The notes under the pieces: model-generated
What the model was told of the DNA's origin: nothing
The model's input: only the letters and a program-made list of their open reading frames with translations
Databases searched by the model: none
Made by a program: the position numbers and the translations under genes
Shown: positions 3,403-61,424 of the stretch, one piece after another
How positions within the stretch are numbered: position 1 is the stretch's first letter
Layout: every line of letters starts with the position of its first letter
Source: a virus
Length of the DNA: 64,000 bases
Strand: one strand, 5' to 3'
Virus record (IMG/VR): IMGVR_UViG_3300042869_001172
Span: 1 to 64,000 of that record

Positions 3403-3612
3403 ATGGAAGAAAAGTATTTCGTAGCAAAAATTCAGTACGACTTACCTGATGAGAATACAGGTAAAATTAGAAAAATCAGAGAAGAAAAACTTGTAGAAGG
3501 GTATTCAGTAACAGATGTTGAGGCCAAGGTTACAAAAAAATATGAGGGGTTCACACACGAGTGGAGAATAACCGCAGTCTCTGAAAGTAAAATTGATGAG
3601 GTTATTCAATAA
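3403..3612 (+). CDS. Small hypothetical protein in head operon
   Basis: A 69-residue protein beginning MEEKYFVAKIQYDL, only 7 nt after the protease stop, so it is probably co-transcribed. It resembles a small single-domain alpha/beta protein (two beta strands, a helix with the motif SVTDVEAKVTKKYEGF, then a strand). No family recognised. It is followed by a clear terminator. Confidence 0.7.
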   Translation: MEEKYFVAKIQYDLPDENTGKIRKIREEKLVEGYSVTDVEAKVTKKYEGFTHEWRITAVSESKIDEVIQ

Positions 3613-3633
3613 CTGATTTAATCATCAATAAAC

Positions 3634-3664
3634 AAAAAGTAGTCGTATTCGACTACTTTTTTTT
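3634..3664 (+). terminator. Intrinsic terminator after protease/small gene
   Basis: Perfect stem AAAAGTAGTCG / CGACTACTTTT with loop TATT and eight T at the 3' side. Confidence 0.85.
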
Positions 3665-3728
3665 GCACTAAATTAAAGTTTATTTTGTCTATTAGTTAGA
3701 TAAAATAAACTTTTTTTGTTTTTGGTAA

Positions 3729-3735
3729 TATTTAT
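3729..3735 (+). promoter_or_regulatory. TATTTAT element upstream of scaffold
   Basis: GGTAATATTTATAATGAAAA ends with the element about 23 nt before the scaffold ATG. It lies after a terminator. Confidence 0.45.
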
Positions 3736-3758
3736 AATGAAAATAACAATAATTTTTC

Positions 3759-5261
3759 ATGCAAGAAAATAATAAATTAGTACAGGAGGCACTTATTCAA
3801 ATGAGACAAGTTGAAGAAGCTATAGCCGAAAACGCAAAAGGAATACTTGCTTCAACTATGAAGGAAGAAATCAATCAGCTAGTAAAAGAATCTCTTTCTG
3901 AACAAGAAGAAGACGGGATTGAATTAGATATGGATGTGGAAGACGATATGGATTCTGATGAAGAAGACATCGACTTAGATATGGACATTGATAATGAAGA
4001 CGAAGATGAAGATGATATGGACATGGATTTTGACATGGACATGGATTCTGATGAAAGTCCAATTGACTTAACAGGAGCTTCTGACGAAGAAATTCTTAAA
4101 GTGTTTAAAGCTATGGGTGAAAAAGATGGTATTATAGTTCAAAAAGACGGTAATGACATTCATTTAACTGATAACGATAATGACTCTGAGTATCTTGTTA
4201 AACTTGGGGAATCTGAAGAAGAAGAGGAAATGTTAGACGAAGAGGACGACATGGAATTTGATGAATTAGGTGAAATGGATGACCAAACTACAGATGACGT
4301 ACTTGATGCGATTTTTGCGGGTGGTAGTACGAATGACATCGATTTAGACCAAGATGATGAAGAAATTATGTTTGAAATCGAATTTGAAGATGACATGATG
4401 GACGACGAAGAAGAGGATTTAGAAGAGTCTTACAATTCAAGAAGAGCTGTGAGAGAAGCGAAATCAACAATCAAACCTAAAGGTGTTGGAATTGGAAATG
4501 GACCAGGTAAAACTGAAATTAAAAAAGTGGCTGGAGGATTCAATGAAAAAAGAAAACAAGGGCCTAAATCAGTAGGGACAGGTAAACCTAAATTCGAATA
4601 CAAAGCAGGGGCAAATATGGGGGGAAAATCCAAAGTTGTTAAGGTAGAAACAAAAGAAGGTGATTACGGAATGAATAAGGGTGATAAATCTAAAACCTTT
4701 AAAGGTGATAAAGATTACACTACTAAACAAGGTGACACTTTAAAAAGAAAAGCTTTTGAAAAAGAGGAAACTAAAGAAGCTGCCCACACTTATGGAATGG
4801 GTTCCAAAGAAGGTAGAGGATTAAGAAAAGGTATTACACCAAATCGTAATAAAGTTTATAAAGAATCTACTGAAGAAGTTTCGTTGTTAAGAGAGAAAAA
4901 TGAAGAGTATAGAAAAGCGTTAAATGTTTTCAGAGAAAAACTTAATGAAGTTGCAATATTTAATTCAAACTTAGCTTACGCAACAAGATTGTTCACTGAA
5001 CATTCGACTACTAAAAAAGAGAAAATTAATATCTTAAGAAGATTTGACGATGTTGAAACTTTAAAAGAATCTAAAAATCTTTATCAGTCAATTAAAGGTG
5101 AATTATCTAAACCAGAAATTAAAAAATCAATTAGTGAATCAGTAGGAAACAAAATTCAAAAAACAGTATCTACAGGTTCATCGACTACTCTACTTGAATC
5201 AAAAACTTATGAAAATCCTCAATTCCTTAGAATGAAAGATTTAATGAGTAAATTAGGGTAA
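3759..5261 (+). CDS. Prohead scaffold/core protein, gp22-like
   Basis: A 500-residue protein with a very acidic N-terminal half (long Asp/Glu/Met runs, residues ~50-225), a basic Gly/Lys-rich middle (~230-370) and a helical C-terminal third (~375-490). It lies directly before the major capsid gene, as gp22 does in T4. The N-terminal helix ends LVKESLSEQEED; the sequence LSE|Q after residue 48 fits the L/I-x-Glu cleavage rule of gp21-type proteases. The size exceeds T4 gp22 (269 residues), so the acidic part may be an addition. Function is inferred from composition and position. Confidence 0.8.
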   Translation: MQENNKLVQEALIQMRQVEEAIAENAKGILASTMKEEINQLVKESLSEQEEDGIELDMDVEDDMDSDEEDIDLDMDIDNEDEDEDDMDMDFDMDMDSDESPIDLTGASDEEILKVFKAMGEKDGIIVQKDGNDIHLTDNDNDSEYLVKLGESEEEEEMLDEEDDMEFDELGEMDDQTTDDVLDAIFAGGSTNDIDLDQDDEEIMFEIEFEDDMMDDEEEDLEESYNSRRAVREAKSTIKPKGVGIGNGPGKTEIKKVAGGFNEKRKQGPKSVGTGKPKFEYKAGANMGGKSKVVKVETKEGDYGMNKGDKSKTFKGDKDYTTKQGDTLKRKAFEKEETKEAAHTYGMGSKEGRGLRKGITPNRNKVYKESTEEVSLLREKNEEYRKALNVFREKLNEVAIFNSNLAYATRLFTEHSTTKKEKINILRRFDDVETLKESKNLYQSIKGELSKPEIKKSISESVGNKIQKTVSTGSSTTLLESKTYENPQFLRMKDLMSKLG

Positions 5262-29948: not shown

Positions 29949-30254
29949 TTAAATTAAACCTGTTGACCCAAATCCGTTATTTCCTCGTTCCCCTTCAGTT
30001 ATTGAATCAACTTGAATTAAGTTGACATATTTTCCATTAACCACTGGACATAAAACTGCTTGAGCGATTTTTGTCCCTTTAGGGATTGATTTTGTTATAT
30101 TATTTGTGTTGAAGACGATTACTTTAATTTCTCCATTATAACCACAATTGTGTATTAGATGTTTATTACAAAAAAAATTATGATTGTTTTTTACTGTTAT
30201 ATCATAAGTTTGTTTTTCCGTTTTGGTGATTTTTTTAATTTTACTTGTTTTCAT
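29949..30254 (-). CDS. dUTPase C-terminal fragment preceded by split-intein C part
   Basis: A 101-residue protein. Residues 1-36 form IntC: KIKKITKTEKQTYDITVKN with block F YDITVKNNHNFF and block G HLIHN. Cys37 is the +1 residue. The C-extein (37-101) begins CGYNGEIKVIVFNTN (dUTPase motif 3-4 region), continues PKGTKIAQAVLCPVV, and ends VDSITEGERGNNGFGSTG (motif 5). It overlaps the endonuclease gene by 14 nt. It should be joined in trans to the N fragment (31169-31885) to give a working dUTPase, which hydrolyses dUTP to dUMP and keeps uracil out of DNA. Confidence 0.9.
   Translation of the reverse strand: MKTSKIKKITKTEKQTYDITVKNNHNFFCNKHLIHNCGYNGEIKVIVFNTNNITKSIPKGTKIAQAVLCPVVNGKYVNLIQVDSITEGERGNNGFGSTGLI
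30147..30254 (-). other. Split intein, C-terminal part (IntC)
   Basis: 36 residues with intact block F (Asp of YDITV and the NHNFF motif) and block G penultimate His and terminal Asn (IHN), followed by Cys+1. Length equals typical naturally split IntC segments. Confidence 0.88.
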
Positions 30255-31128
30255 ATATGAATTTTTTTAAATCGTCGACTGAATAAAATAGTTTATAGTT
30301 TGGGTATTGTTTTAATGTATATTTTTGTTTAATTAAAACTTCTTCGGTTTCCCATCCCTTCATTTCAATAATAAATTTATTACCATTTTCTAATTCAACA
30401 TAGAAATCAGGAATATAGTATCTATTCATATTATTATAATAATATTTGATTCTTATTCCGTGTTTATTTGTCCATGTTTTAACATAATCTATAGAGTCCA
30501 AAAACTTCATAGAATCTAACTCGTATGATGATGAATAATAAAAAGTTTCTTGTTTATTTGATGTGTATGTTCCTGTTTTATATCTATTACTGTCATTAGA
30601 GAACTTACCTGAACTATATAATTTTGATATTATCTCCGACATTTTTTCTTTAAAATCGTCACTTTTTTGACATCTCCCATCATTTAATCTCTCTTTAATT
30701 GTTTGTATAGTTCTTTTTCGATAATCATCATCTTCCCATCTTTCTTTTGAACTTTTTGATATTTTTTTAATTCTTTCTTCAGATTTAACCCATTCTTTAA
30801 ACCTTTCACTTTTAGACCACGATGTAAAACCGGAGTAAATTTCAGGAGTTTCCTTGTGTTTTTTTTTCACAATTTCACTCATTTTTTCAATAAATTCTGG
30901 TTTATTATGTGAAATTTTTCTTGAAATTTTCATCTTTTCTTTAAACTCAGGTTCCGACCATTTTGACTTCATATTATTTGAATTCATTTTAAAAAATTCA
31001 ACTGACTTAACATTAGATTTAGGAAACCTTTCTTTATATTCTTTTGAGGTTATTTTGTGTTCGTACTTTAAGTGTTCCACTATTGAGTATTCTTTCTCAA
31101 CCCCGCATATTTGACATTTTACCGACAT
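30241..31128 (-). CDS. Homing endonuclease inside fractured dUTPase locus
   Basis: A 295-residue protein. The N-terminal zinc-finger-like segment has CQICGVEKEYSIVEHLKYEH with a CxxC...H...H layout. The middle has NUMOD3-like repeats (MKSKWSEPEFKEKMK, HNKPEFIEKMSEIV). The C-terminal nuclease is of PD-(D/E)XK type: ETFYYSSSYELDSMKFLDS, NRYYIPDFYVELEN, then KFIIEMKGWETEEV and a following Lys/Tyr helix. Such VSR/EDxHD-like enzymes are the ones described with split-intein fractured genes in marine metagenomes (Dassa and colleagues). It lies exactly in the gap between the two dUTPase halves. Confidence 0.85.
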   Translation of the reverse strand: MSVKCQICGVEKEYSIVEHLKYEHKITSKEYKERFPKSNVKSVEFFKMNSNNMKSKWSEPEFKEKMKISRKISHNKPEFIEKMSEIVKKKHKETPEIYSGFTSWSKSERFKEWVKSEERIKKISKSSKERWEDDDYRKRTIQTIKERLNDGRCQKSDDFKEKMSEIISKLYSSGKFSNDSNRYKTGTYTSNKQETFYYSSSYELDSMKFLDSIDYVKTWTNKHGIRIKYYYNNMNRYYIPDFYVELENGNKFIIEMKGWETEEVLIKQKYTLKQYPNYKLFYSVDDLKKFIYENK

Positions 31129-31134
31129 ACTCTA

Positions 31135-31156
31135 TATCTATCTTTATTGATAGATA
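31135..31156 (-). promoter_or_regulatory. Hairpin just upstream of endonuclease start
   Basis: Inverted repeat TATCTATC / GATAGATA with a six-base loop, beginning 7 nt upstream of the endonuclease ATG. It could restrain translation; stem is AT-rich and weak. Confidence 0.4.
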
Positions 31157-31168
31157 GTATACTGGTGA

Positions 31169-31885
31169 TTAAAAGATTATAATTTCATCATTTTCTTTTA
31201 AATTTTTGGCTAAAATAATTCCGTTAGTCGTATATACCTCGGAATTTGGTGTGACTTCTAGCACACCTAATTCCGTTTCAATAATAAGAACTTCTTGAGT
31301 TTCTGTATCAAATATGTTGGATACGACATCTTTTTCAATCTCAAAAGTTTTTTCATTAACTGAAAAAACAACATCGTTTATTTTTAATTCCGATAATAAT
31401 TTCTCACCATCAACTGTAAGTATTTTCATATCCTCAGAGAAACAATCTACAGTTCCGGGAGTATTTAATACTGTTAAACCTTGATTAATCGCTAAACCGC
31501 TTTTTGGTCTTACTTGTATTTCAAATTCATCAGGGATTGATAATTTAATACCTGTTGGGACTAATCCCCGACCAAATGGAGGTAGAATAACTTCTTCCGT
31601 CGAAAATAGGTCAAATCCTGAATCACTTGGGTAAGCGTATTCAGGAAACTTCGCATCCTCATTTAATAATTCCACTTTTAAATTTTTAGTCTTAATTGCT
31701 TTTAACGCGTCTTCGTTCATCTCCTCATACGTCATACCAATCAATTCTTCCAACTCTTTTTGGTATTCGTCGTCTTCGTCAATCTCAACACCTGATTCTT
31801 CCTGTATTTTTTTAAAATGATTTTGAATATCATTTAATATTTCAGGGTCAAACCCTAAACCATCTAAACCATCAAATCCTCCCAT
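31169..31885 (-). CDS. dUTPase N-terminal fragment fused to split-intein N part
   Basis: A 238-residue protein. Residues 1-~68 are an acidic N-terminal extension not typical of dUTPases. The N-extein carries motif 1 AYPSDSGFDLFS (85-96), motif 2 QVRPKSGLAINQGL (124-137) and motif 3 start VLNTPGTVD (139-147). IntN begins at Cys148 (CFSEDMKILTVDGEKLL) and runs 91 residues to the stop. The break lies inside motif 3, so the catalytic Asp is in this half and the Tyr in the other half. Starts one base overlapping the exonuclease stop. Confidence 0.9.
   Translation of the reverse strand: MGGFDGLDGLGFDPEILNDIQNHFKKIQEESGVEIDEDDEYQKELEELIGMTYEEMNEDALKAIKTKNLKVELLNEDAKFPEYAYPSDSGFDLFSTEEVILPPFGRGLVPTGIKLSIPDEFEIQVRPKSGLAINQGLTVLNTPGTVDCFSEDMKILTVDGEKLLSELKINDVVFSVNEKTFEIEKDVVSNIFDTETQEVLIIETELGVLEVTPNSEVYTTNGIILAKNLKENDEIIIF
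31172..31444 (-). other. Split intein, N-terminal part (IntN)
   Basis: 91 residues beginning Cys1, block A CFSEDMKILTVDG, block B VLEVTPNSEVYTTNG, ending LKENDEIIIF. The block B position usually occupied by His (TxxH) holds Ser. Confidence 0.88.
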
Positions 31886-32586
31886 TATTTTAATTCTTTT
31901 AATTTTTTAATTACTTCCACTAGTACCTCAACATCTTTTTCGCAGTATTCTACAATACCTTTAATGTCTTTTTTAATCCAAAAGGCTTCATGAACTTTAT
32001 TTCCTGTTACTTCCATATTTTTAGACGATTCAACACCTAAACACACACACATTAACTCTAATGAGGCAATTGACCCATAACCACCATATTGCCACACTTC
32101 TTTAGTATCAAGAGCTTTAATTTCCCAAGGTTTAGTATCGTGACCTGGTAAAATTTTTGGAGGTAGTAACCCATTCATTATCATTCTTTTAGCAAGAACA
32201 GGAATATCAAAACCTTTAACATTATGTCCGCAAAGAAAAAACCCTAATTCACCGGTACGATAAAGCATTTTTTGAACATCTATTAGTAATTCTTTTTCAT
32301 CAAGATTACTAAATGACTGCATTTTTGTTTCACCATCAGGCCCAATAAAGGCAACACTAACACAAGCAATTCTTAAGAATTCAGGGACTAGTGCTGCCCG
32401 ATTAACAAACATTTTTCCCGGACCTTCATCGGCATCTTCGGGGAACCTTTTTTGAAACCAATCAAAATATTTTTCAAACTGAAAGGAAAGTTCCGGTCTA
32501 TTCGTACATAACGATTCCCAAGTGGGTTCAATCCCAACGGTTTCAATATCTAAAAATAAAATCTTATTTAATGGAATGTTTATCAT
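31885..32586 (-). CDS. DnaQ-like 3'-5' exonuclease
   Basis: A 233-residue RNase H-fold exonuclease. Exo I is ILFLDIETVG (D13, E15), Exo II is FFLCGHNVKGFDIPVLAKR, Exo III is IVEYCEKDVEVLVEV; KALDTKEVWQYGGYGSIASL lies between. The layout resembles the stand-alone PolB-type exonucleases. Roles could be DNA proofreading or repair alongside the family B polymerase at 52628. It is coupled to the dUTPase gene by an overlapping stop/start. Confidence 0.87.
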   Translation of the reverse strand: MINIPLNKILFLDIETVGIEPTWESLCTNRPELSFQFEKYFDWFQKRFPEDADEGPGKMFVNRAALVPEFLRIACVSVAFIGPDGETKMQSFSNLDEKELLIDVQKMLYRTGELGFFLCGHNVKGFDIPVLAKRMIMNGLLPPKILPGHDTKPWEIKALDTKEVWQYGGYGSIASLELMCVCLGVESSKNMEVTGNKVHEAFWIKKDIKGIVEYCEKDVEVLVEVIKKLKELK

Positions 32587-58535: not shown

Positions 58536-61424
58536 TTATTTTTTTCTTAAACTATTAATTTTTGTCATAATTTCTTCAGCTGCGTCAGCAGTATTTTGAT
58601 TATCTCCCATGACGGTTGCAATCACTTGTTTCTTATTATGAAGTATGTCGTAGATAATTCCCTCAATTGTATTTTCAAAAATTGGGTAATAAACTAATAC
58701 GTTGTTTTTTTGTCCATATCTATATGCCCGGTCTTCTGATTGTGCATGGTCGGAAGGTAAAAACGATAAATCATTAAAAATTACCGCTTCAGCAGATGTC
58801 AATGTAATACCAACACCGGCAGCTTTAATATTACCGACAAATACTTTTATCTTATCATTTTCTTGGAATTGGTCCACACTGAATTGTCTCTCAACTTTAG
58901 ACATTGAACCATCGAGTTTAACCGCCGCTTTTCCAAAATGTTCTGTAATTTTATTTAATGAATCGGTAAAGTTACAAAAAATTATGACTTTTTTATCTTG
59001 TTCGATAATATTTTCCGCAATTTCTATTGTTTGAGTAATTTTTTCATCTGCAATAATTTGACGAATTTTAGTAAGTTTTGTGAATTGAACTGTTAAGGAT
59101 TTTGATTCTTCAGGGTTCTTTTCATACCAATTGTAATAATCACCCATTACTTCTTCATAAAGTTTAGACTTTAATCTTAAGTAAACCGGAGTAATAATTT
59201 TATCTGGTAAATCTAAAACATTTTCTTTCAACCTTCTCAAAGTAAGACCTGCAGTTCTATCTCGTAATTCTTCAAGATTAGATGCCCCTTGAACATTCCA
59301 AATTTTTCTTGGACCAACTTTAAATTGAAAACCAGAACAATAACGAATAACATATGCCATCCAATTCTTGGCTACAGGTGAATCAATTAAACTAAGTAAA
59401 TTAAAATAATCGATTGGACGGGAAGTCATTGGTGTACCAGTTAATAACCACAACCTATCAACACTTTTTGTAATGTCATTAATAAGTTTTGTTCGTTGAG
59501 CTTGAGCATTGTTAATATAATGAGCTTCATCAATAATAATTAAATCAAATTTTGACATTAAGATTAAAGAATCATCTTTCTTTTTTGGGTCGTGAAAATT
59601 CTTCATAATATCGTAATTAACGATAACAAAATCATCTTCGGTACTAAATTGTTTTCCTTCTGAGATATAGATACTTCTATCCGAATAATTTTCAATTTCT
59701 CTTTTCCAGTTAATTTTAAGAGTTGCGGGACAAATAATTAAAATTTTCTTCGCTCCCGTTTCTAAAGCGGCAATAATGGTAGAAGTTGTGTTATGTGTAA
59801 CAATTGCGTGTTCAGTTACATATAATTTATCAGGAGAATCTACTGAAATACAAATAGCCTCACCATTACCCTCAAATTTAATATCTTTAATATATCTACC
59901 AACCTTATATTTTTCGGGAGTATTGTATAAATCGTATTTTCTTTTAAGTTTAAATGGATTCATCCCTGATGGTAATTTTATGTTAACTCTATAAGATTTT
60001 TTACCTTCTTTTTTTTCACCCTTGTATGTATAGTTAGTTGTTCTACTTTTTTTTTTGGCAATACCACCTAAACTATGTACGATTTCAATAACATCATCAC
60101 ATAATCTTTCCGATACAGTTGAAAATTCAGTCCCTTCAAAATTTCCTTTTTTATTGAGGCAACAAGTTCCATCAGTATCCATTAAACCTTTTAAAATTTC
60201 TAATCTATTTTCAATTGAGGTATATTTAAAACAATCCGGGACAAATTTATTATGAGAAGTACAACCCATTAAATTTAAATTTTTAAGAATTTGTGTGATA
60301 GGATTATTGTGACCATTTTTTTTTGTAATGGAATAATCATATTTAGTATTTTTCTTTTTAATTATTTGAGTATTTTCAGGTAATAATTCTTTAATATATT
60401 CTATGATTTCATCATCTGCGGAACTAAACATAATACTTTTTTGACTGATACCTCCATCACCTAAAATTAACCCAAGTAAATAAGGATTTACCGGGATTTC
60501 ATTATCAACAAATTCAATTGGTTTAACAATAGGTATTTGCCACTTACTATTACCTCCTTTTTCCTTAAAATAAGTTTTAAATTTATAATTTCTATTAATA
60601 TTATTTTTCTCACCTGAGACTTCTAAAAATAATTCTTCATCAATCATTTGACCAATAGATAAAACAATGTTTTTTTTATTACGAGAATTTTTAGTATTAT
60701 GACCAAAACTTCGCGCCCTAACAGAAAATAAATGTTCTTTACAGACTAAGACAGAAACTCCATCGTTAAATGTTACTCTATATAAATCTTTAATTCCTTG
60801 AGGATAAACACCTTGAACATTACATTTCTTACCATCACTACCAATAACTTCATCACCAATTTCTAAATCTCCAATTCTTTTTCTACCATATGGGGTAAAT
60901 ACTTTATTCTCAACAAATTCAGCTTTACCCAACCCCATATCGTCAGCAAGAATAAACTTCTTATTCTCAACTAATTTTTGGACGGCTTCTTTTTGATGTT
61001 CAAGAGGAGGACGATTAGAGTATTTTGAATAATCAATTACAACGTTTTTAACGGTGTTATCTTTAATGATTGCCGCTTTAGGTAACCAAAAATGATGGAA
61101 CTCTTCGGTTTCAAATACTCTACCCCAAATATGATACGCTTTTTCTTTATCCGATAATAATTTCTCAACCCATACCTTTTGTGGTATTTCAGTATACAAT
61201 TTATCATCCGCAAGTTTCTGTGCGAAGTAGGTATCAAGAATTACCCATTTCTTGGCAACTTTGGGTTGTTTATCGTGATTGTTAATTATGTATTCTGATT
61301 GACTCCTTGTTGGGTAAAACTTTCTATTTAATTGTGACTTTCGTTTTAATTCAATAAGGTAGTTATTACCACCTTCATAGGTTTCCAATAAGGACAATGC
61401 TTTTGACTCGAGACTTACATCCAT
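58536..61424 (-). CDS. SNF2-family DNA helicase/ATPase interrupted by intein
   Basis: A 962-residue precursor; 584 residues without the intein. N-terminal ~140 residues are of unknown type. Motif I AXXGK is FILADDMGLGK|TTSTIIAAL, split after Lys167. Motif Ia ILIICPATLKINWKREI; motif II DLIIIDEAHYINNAQA; motif III LLTGTPMTSRPIDYF; motif IV-VI KVFVGNIKAAGVGITLTSA and SEDRAYRYGQKN. It is related to the UvsW/SNF2-type repair helicases in role, though sequence is SNF2/HepA-like. The likely role is fork repair or recombination. Active only after splicing joins GK to T. Confidence 0.9.
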   Translation of the reverse strand: MDVSLESKALSLLETYEGGNNYLIELKRKSQLNRKFYPTRSQSEYIINNHDKQPKVAKKWVILDTYFAQKLADDKLYTEIPQKVWVEKLLSDKEKAYHIWGRVFETEEFHHFWLPKAAIIKDNTVKNVVIDYSKYSNRPPLEHQKEAVQKLVENKKFILADDMGLGKAEFVENKVFTPYGRKRIGDLEIGDEVIGSDGKKCNVQGVYPQGIKDLYRVTFNDGVSVLVCKEHLFSVRARSFGHNTKNSRNKKNIVLSIGQMIDEELFLEVSGEKNNINRNYKFKTYFKEKGGNSKWQIPIVKPIEFVDNEIPVNPYLLGLILGDGGISQKSIMFSSADDEIIEYIKELLPENTQIIKKKNTKYDYSITKKNGHNNPITQILKNLNLMGCTSHNKFVPDCFKYTSIENRLEILKGLMDTDGTCCLNKKGNFEGTEFSTVSERLCDDVIEIVHSLGGIAKKKSRTTNYTYKGEKKEGKKSYRVNIKLPSGMNPFKLKRKYDLYNTPEKYKVGRYIKDIKFEGNGEAICISVDSPDKLYVTEHAIVTHNTTSTIIAALETGAKKILIICPATLKINWKREIENYSDRSIYISEGKQFSTEDDFVIVNYDIMKNFHDPKKKDDSLILMSKFDLIIIDEAHYINNAQAQRTKLINDITKSVDRLWLLTGTPMTSRPIDYFNLLSLIDSPVAKNWMAYVIRYCSGFQFKVGPRKIWNVQGASNLEELRDRTAGLTLRRLKENVLDLPDKIITPVYLRLKSKLYEEVMGDYYNWYEKNPEESKSLTVQFTKLTKIRQIIADEKITQTIEIAENIIEQDKKVIIFCNFTDSLNKITEHFGKAAVKLDGSMSKVERQFSVDQFQENDKIKVFVGNIKAAGVGITLTSAEAVIFNDLSFLPSDHAQSEDRAYRYGQKNNVLVYYPIFENTIEGIIYDILHNKKQVIATVMGDNQNTADAAEEIMTKINSLRKK
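59790..60923 (-). other. Intein (378 aa) with LAGLIDADG endonuclease, class 3-like
   Basis: The intein runs from Ala168 to Asn545 of the precursor. N terminus AEFVENKVFTPYGRKRIGDL (Ala1, not Cys/Ser). Block B has CKEHLFSV with H231 and F233. LAGLIDADG motifs are PYLLGLILGDGGI and RLEILKGLMDTDGTC. Block F is EAICISVDSPDKLYV with Cys525 where class 1 has Asp; block G is IVTHN with Thr543, His544, Asn545. +1 residue Thr. The Cys and Thr match two of three class 3 marks. Confidence 0.87.

Follow-up and report, generated by a model that had tools for sequence, protein, structure and literature searches.

How can a viral dUTPase gene that lies in two separate pieces still give a single enzyme, and how did it come to be interrupted at this point? 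In the window, that is, the whole 64,000-nucleotide stretch analysed here (positions 1 to 64,000 of IMG/VR record IMGVR_UViG_3300042869_001172), three minus-strand open reading frames follow one another at 31169-31885 (238 aa), 30241-31128 (295 aa) and 29949-30254 (101 aa), and their features are collected in Table 1. The best explanation, to which we give a probability of about 86%, is a mobile split-intein module, in which the dUTPase would be made by protein trans-splicing and the module would spread by homing. We infer that the two half-genes are translated separately and that trans-splicing follows once the acidic intein N part has paired with the basic intein C part; Asp(-1) would then be joined to Cys(+1), and the motif 3 so restored would differ from the empty allele by one Ser-to-Cys scar. 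The predicted target of the endonuclease encoded in the gap is motif 3 of dUTPase genes that lack the intein; once these are cut, the module would be copied in by recombination (homing), and an RNA hairpin at the endonuclease start codon probably holds back translation of that gene.

Table 1. Features of the interrupted dUTPase locus, in window positions; the whole virus record has 177,648 bases.
Feature	Position	Strand	Remarks
dUTPase N half	31445..31885	-	147 codons; motifs 1-2 and the motif 3 Asp; Pfam match
Intein N part	31172..31444	-	91 aa, Cys1 to Phe91; block B VTPNSEVYT (Ser, usually His)
Predicted RNA hairpin	31121..31166	-	pairs over the endonuclease start codon; z -3.03
Free-standing homing-type endonuclease gene	30241..31128	-	295 aa
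Endonuclease zinc finger C5-C8-H19-H24	31057..31116	-	ROS/MucR-like; invariant in 18/18
TnsA-like PD-(D/E)XK nuclease domain	30268..30660	-	residues 157-287; E203, D241, E255, K257
Intein C part	30147..30254	-	36 aa; ends HLIHN; Cys29 in NHNFFCN
dUTPase C half and stop	29949..30146	-	from the +1 Cys; motif 3 Tyr, motifs 4 and 5

A dUTPase gene interrupted in motif 3

Both outer reading frames are recognized by the Pfam dUTPase profile, with residues 77-138 of the 238-aa frame matching profile positions 2-63 (E 1.6e-9) and residues 38-99 of the 101-aa frame matching positions 71-129 (E 2.5e-10). The tail of the N half and the head of the C half match the Intein_splicing profile with E-values of 4.3e-4 and 1.7e-5, respectively, the scores of both matches falling short of the Pfam cut-off. 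The gene is broken as NTPGTVD / C...N / CGYNGE, so that the interruption falls inside motif 3, directly after its conserved Asp, and, in an alignment with solved dUTPases, the Asp of NTPGTVD falls at their conserved motif 3 Asp. This motif 3 Asp is a catalytic residue of dUTPases. The locus has the make-up of a fractured gene: two enzyme reading frames are flanked by intein N and C parts, and an endonuclease gene occupies the gap. A preliminary description of this DNA, made from the letters and a list of reading frames, had given the same coordinates and the same dUTPase halves, which agree with the reading-frame list and the Pfam matches; its intein parts of 91 and 36 residues are borne out by the position of the break and the Intein_splicing matches, and its placing of the break between the Asp and the Tyr of motif 3 by the junction itself. 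Its central claim, a split-intein dUTPase with an endonuclease in the gap, finds support in the profiles, empty sites, intein residues, low dN/dS values and 54 contigs described here.

A Pfam search of the whole record, which may be incomplete, returned these two halves as its only dUTPase matches. The ATG of the N-half reading frame overlaps the stop codon of an upstream exonuclease-like gene (31885-32586). The next gene downstream of 29949 is FkbM-methyltransferase-like, and similarity to nine relatives with an uninterrupted dUTPase falls to about chance level just past the end of the C half. The same phage carries a second intein-like element at 58536-61424, where the insert that interrupts a SNF2-type helicase is intein-like and fused, bears LAGLIDADG and has a weak Hint-type match.

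Breadth of the module and its nearest known relatives

The module, whole or partial, is found at the same site in 54 distinct IMG/VR contigs, each with at least one half. The interrupted set comprises 23 distinct versions of the intein N part and 20 of the intein C part, and some of the 23 differ by only a few residues and are therefore not 23 independent cases. The N half of the window recurs at 100% identity in five other contigs (L005, one of the five, ends before its C half is complete); because of these five contigs and the divergent versions at the same site, the arrangement is not a product of chance or of an assembly error. A first scan gave 42 loci, 28 interrupted and 14 uninterrupted at the same codon boundary; the residue at the +1 position is Ser in all 14 uninterrupted loci (L007-L013, L036-L042), and junction DNA was compared for 9 of them. 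The N halves of ten divergent members are only 40-51% identical to that of the window, and the site has therefore been kept or invaded in dUTPases that differ widely.

Every locus with both halves is split, and no fused (cis) version occurs among the 161 overlapping loci, the window included, some of which have one half only; the viral and genome scans were pattern-based, and other versions could escape them. Among genome contigs, the interrupted form is in none of the best 80 of at least 580 relatives, judged at table level. In named phage records (369 records; 308 records), the N-half query gave no match covering 80% of its length; the intein N part alone gave weak matches only (27 records, best E 9e-3), whose hosts are genes such as RNR, helicase, terminase and thymidylate synthase. 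The C-half query matched 3 named phage records at a coverage of at least 80%, and a divergent C half at a stricter E-value matched none at that coverage. The intein C part alone reached 71 named phage records; among the 60 matches listed, none is annotated as dUTPase, and the hosts are mainly polymerase, RNR and helicase.

Fractured genes with split inteins were reportedly described by Dassa and colleagues in 2009, in eight types of DNA synthesis and repair enzymes from metagenomes, and the new endonuclease family named there is said to be Vsr-like. The arrangement reported there has in common with the present locus a split intein that interrupts a phage gene for nucleotide or DNA metabolism and a free-standing endonuclease between the halves; the present locus differs in its dUTPase host gene, in the absence of the block B His and in an endonuclease with a TnsA-like domain and a zinc finger. 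It is unlikely that the dUTPase arrangement is already among those eight types: as DNA synthesis and repair enzymes they leave room for it, but no intein-bearing or split-intein dUTPase was found in the available portions of the literature on dUTPase and inteins, a search outside which the 2009 paper lies. Fractured genes are a known kind of arrangement, for which dUTPase seems to be a new host gene.

When the two intein parts are joined, the resulting 127-residue intein is similar in parts to NrdJ-1 (8ubs; E 1e-5), gp41-1 (6qaz; E 2.2e-4) and Npu DnaB (4o1r; E 3.9e-8), and the gp41-1 chain, at 128 residues, is almost the same length. The gp41-1 and NrdJ-1 inteins are split at the same place. 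A further relative in organization is the split PolB of Pseudomonas phage MIJ3, likewise a large phage, in which, according to the accessible part of PMC6892783, a split intein also has an endonuclease reading frame between its halves; unlike the dUTPase module, MIJ3 has PolB as the host gene, an HNH endonuclease and a block B with His (VTEDH).

Endonuclease, transfer and decay

The free-standing gene in the gap had been put down in the preliminary description as a PD-(D/E)XK/VSR-like endonuclease with NUMOD3 repeats. Its free-standing state and its PD-(D/E)XK nature stand; the NUMOD3 repeats and the kinship with Vsr were not confirmed, as Pfam gave no NUMOD3 match in the endonuclease and the nearest solved fold is TnsA (Foldseek E 7.7e-4; Z 9.8, rmsd 3.5 over 127 residues). 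There is no Vsr fold among the matches listed and no Vsr profile among the Pfam families, an absence that excludes nothing. The structure model has a mean pLDDT of 83 and a pTM of 0.50. At E up to 0.1, 14 of the 18 members match the TnsA-like Pfam family (the best at 1e-6; the match of the window copy lies below the curated cut-off) and 10 of them match ROS/MucR, while C5, C8, H19 and H24 as well as E203, D241, E255 and K257 are invariant in all 18. With both the fold match and the E...D...E-x-K residues of TnsA-like nucleases present, the enzyme is better described as a ROS/MucR-like zinc finger joined to a TnsA-like PD-(D/E)XK domain. Weak relatives of the endonuclease occur in L158 and L291-L297, and one distant phage relative is annotated as NUMOD3-bearing.

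The RNA at the endonuclease start is more stable than its shuffles in 16 of 17 loci (z -2.67 to -6.87), the exception being L074; the set of 17 leaves aside L109, where the spacer is so short that it gives no fold, and L025, which is nearly identical to L026, and its core loci are close relatives. In the distant L071, L073 and L115 the stem ends just before the start codon, whereas in the window it pairs over it. Covariation in the hairpin was not above that of shuffles, and the case for the hairpin is for this reason one of stability and recurrence; Rfam at gathering thresholds gave no match in the window. Hairpins that hide the start of T4-type endonuclease genes are known, according to the available text of PMC2988022.

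Five natural states of the module were found at this one site. The empty state is that of the 14 uninterrupted loci; in L157, the dUTPase is intact and an endonuclease lies 53 nt downstream; the window and most other loci are split with an endonuclease; L107 is split with a frameshifted endonuclease; and L116-L121 are split but lack an intact endonuclease (L119 being truncated by the contig edge). Past the N-half stop of L116 it is 65 nt to the next ATG, and the gap holds a 38-residue remnant that differs at two positions from the end of the endonuclease of L107. The state of L157 is as expected for collaborative homing, a term taken from the accessible portion of PMC2988022, or for intein loss. 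Damage also reaches other parts of the module: L025 has deletions in the endonuclease and the dUTPase C half, and in L024 the C half is cut short by an early stop. Since the states at one site are graded, from empty, through empty with an adjacent endonuclease and split with an endonuclease, to a broken endonuclease and a remnant, the origin and decay of split inteins can be read directly.

Across ten core-locus pairs, dN/dS was computed for the intein N part, the intein C part, the endonuclease and the two dUTPase halves; of the 50 values, the 45 for which dS is finite range from 0 to 0.32, and, because dS is infinite in the other five and in many cases above 1 or near saturation, the ratios are rough. 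As far as sequence comparison goes, these values show purifying selection on the intein, the endonuclease and the enzyme halves.

The module has also moved between dUTPase genes. In the dUTPase tree, the window stands among uninterrupted genes, and the distribution of interrupted and empty sites needs three changes. L006 has a dUTPase of the window type together with an intein and endonuclease of the L024/L028 type. Holding L006, L024 and L028 together is rejected on the dUTPase data (AU p 3.1e-5), and holding the window and L006 together is rejected on the intein (p 0.0066) and the endonuclease (p 1e-64), the AU groups having been chosen after the trees were seen. Silent divergence between L006 and L028 is 0.65 in the intein N part, 0.51 in the intein C part and 0.55 in the endonuclease, as against 2.23 and 2.06 in the dUTPase halves. 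Upstream of the junction, the window and the uninterrupted L041 agree at 98 of the nearest 100 nt and at 144 of the next 200, and nine other empty genes agree with the window at 81-86 of the nearest 100 bases; the 100-nt match to L041 may be read as a co-conversion tract. The tree conflicts together with this conversion-like tract indicate probable lateral homing.

That the endonuclease is instead an independent selfish gene, which entered a split intein already in place and plays no part in the mobility of the intein, is distinctly unlikely. Split forms do persist with no intact endonuclease in L116-L121, and in L157 the endonuclease stands beside an intact dUTPase; but the L157 copy still adjoins a dUTPase, its presumed target, and in L006 the intein and the endonuclease have moved together into a different dUTPase background. 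In addition, the end of the endonuclease gene overlaps the start of the intein C part in all nine core loci compared, by the first 14 nt of that part in the window, but not in the distant L074.

Near the module, other elements were noted. In L282, a RecA-like gene upstream of the split dUTPase (2028-2984) has, by eye, an apparent intein C part at its front and is preceded by an endonuclease-like reading frame. L115 has a second, different PD-(D/E)XK-like reading frame (3533-4447) just downstream of the split dUTPase, and L067 has what looks by eye like a GIY-YIG endonuclease reading frame (718-1551) two genes upstream of it.

Intein residues and the first splicing step

The nucleophile, the terminal Asn and the +1 residue of a canonical class 1 intein are all present in the dUTPase inteins, and the His of the block B TxxH motif is absent. 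Cys1 and the Thr of TxxH occur in 23 of 23 distinct intein N parts, and the His position (position 68) is occupied by Thr in 15, by Ser in 8 and by His in none; the -1 residue is Asp in all 23. In control phage inteins caught by the same profile, TxxH is found in 11 of 11, some of these matches being weak (E up to 0.008) and some rows near copies, with a twelfth row, a dUTPase intein, excluded. Among the 20 distinct intein C parts, the terminal Asn and the block F Asp are invariant, the penultimate residue is His in 19 (Gly in L073), and block F position 29 is Cys in 19 and Ala in L071; control intein C parts, for which one of the retrieval patterns permitted either C or A at position 29, have Ala there in 22 of 22. 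Similarly, the NrdJ-1 and Npu DnaB alignments have TxxH and a block F Ala, in contrast to the Ser/Thr and Cys of the dUTPase family. Elsewhere in block F, L156 has Ser for His. On the extein side, the +1 residue is Cys in 18 and Ser in 2, and the +3 residue is Tyr in 20 of 20. The net charge in the window is -13 for the intein N part and +6 for the intein C part, within family ranges of -13 to -3 and 0 to +6. The absent block B His, the family-specific Cys and the hairpin described above are new here and were missing from the preliminary description; the make-up of the endonuclease, a zinc finger plus a TnsA-like domain, is likewise new.

It has been reported that no other intein residue is as highly conserved as the block B His, with a small group of inteins lacking it (PMC6333167, in the part available), and that it is essential in many inteins (PMC6333167, PMC7765530, likewise in part). 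The same portion of PMC6333167 reports that a bulky -1 residue can compensate for the His in a mutant, and for natural inteins offers speculation only. According to the accessible text of PMC6333167 and PMC7765530, Tko CDC21-1 shares with the dUTPase inteins a natural loss of this His; it has a compensating Lys there and Leu at -1, where the dUTPase inteins have Asp, and it is not described as split in that text. That the dUTPase intein is catalytically dead, its block B His lost and its halves either decaying or working unspliced by non-covalent association, is very improbable, since, against the loss of the His in all 23 intein N parts, the naming of one His-less intein as a degraded pseudogene (PMC7765530, as far as available) and the damaged copies L024 and L025, there stand the low dN/dS of the intein parts and of the two dUTPase halves alike, the retention of Cys1, the terminal Asn, the block F Asp and Asp(-1) even where N halves share as little as 40% identity, the lack of a second dUTPase match in the record, and the activity of the His-less Tko CDC21-1 (PMC6333167, PMC7765530, in the same portions).

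If the dUTPase inteins do splice, as the mobile-module reading has it, the first step would have to proceed with no block B His. Our hypothesis, put forward tentatively and at well below even odds, is a rewired active site, in which the block F Cys (NHNFFC), the -1 Asp or both would aid the first acyl shift in place of the His. The Ala of L071 counts against the Cys being indispensable. If Asp(-1) took this part, the intein would borrow the catalytic Asp of its host enzyme and would be tied to this one site; no case of a natural intein borrowing a catalytic residue of its host was found in the available portions of the intein literature examined. Lys38 was considered as a compensating base (Lys in 20 of 23, Arg in 2 of 23) and rejected as weak, Npu DnaB having Lys there together with TxxH.

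A natural family of split inteins lacking the block B His offers a test case for the catalysis of the first splicing step and may yield orthogonal splicing tools; since dUTPase is easily assayed, splicing can be scored by function. Both types of intein meet on one contig, 3300031884_000002 (353,772 bases, a large phage), which carries L123 in dUTPase (TPGT, Cys) and L138 in another gene (TPDH, Ala). The host gene of the L138 split intein, with NPC...EI junctions, appears RNR-like by eye.
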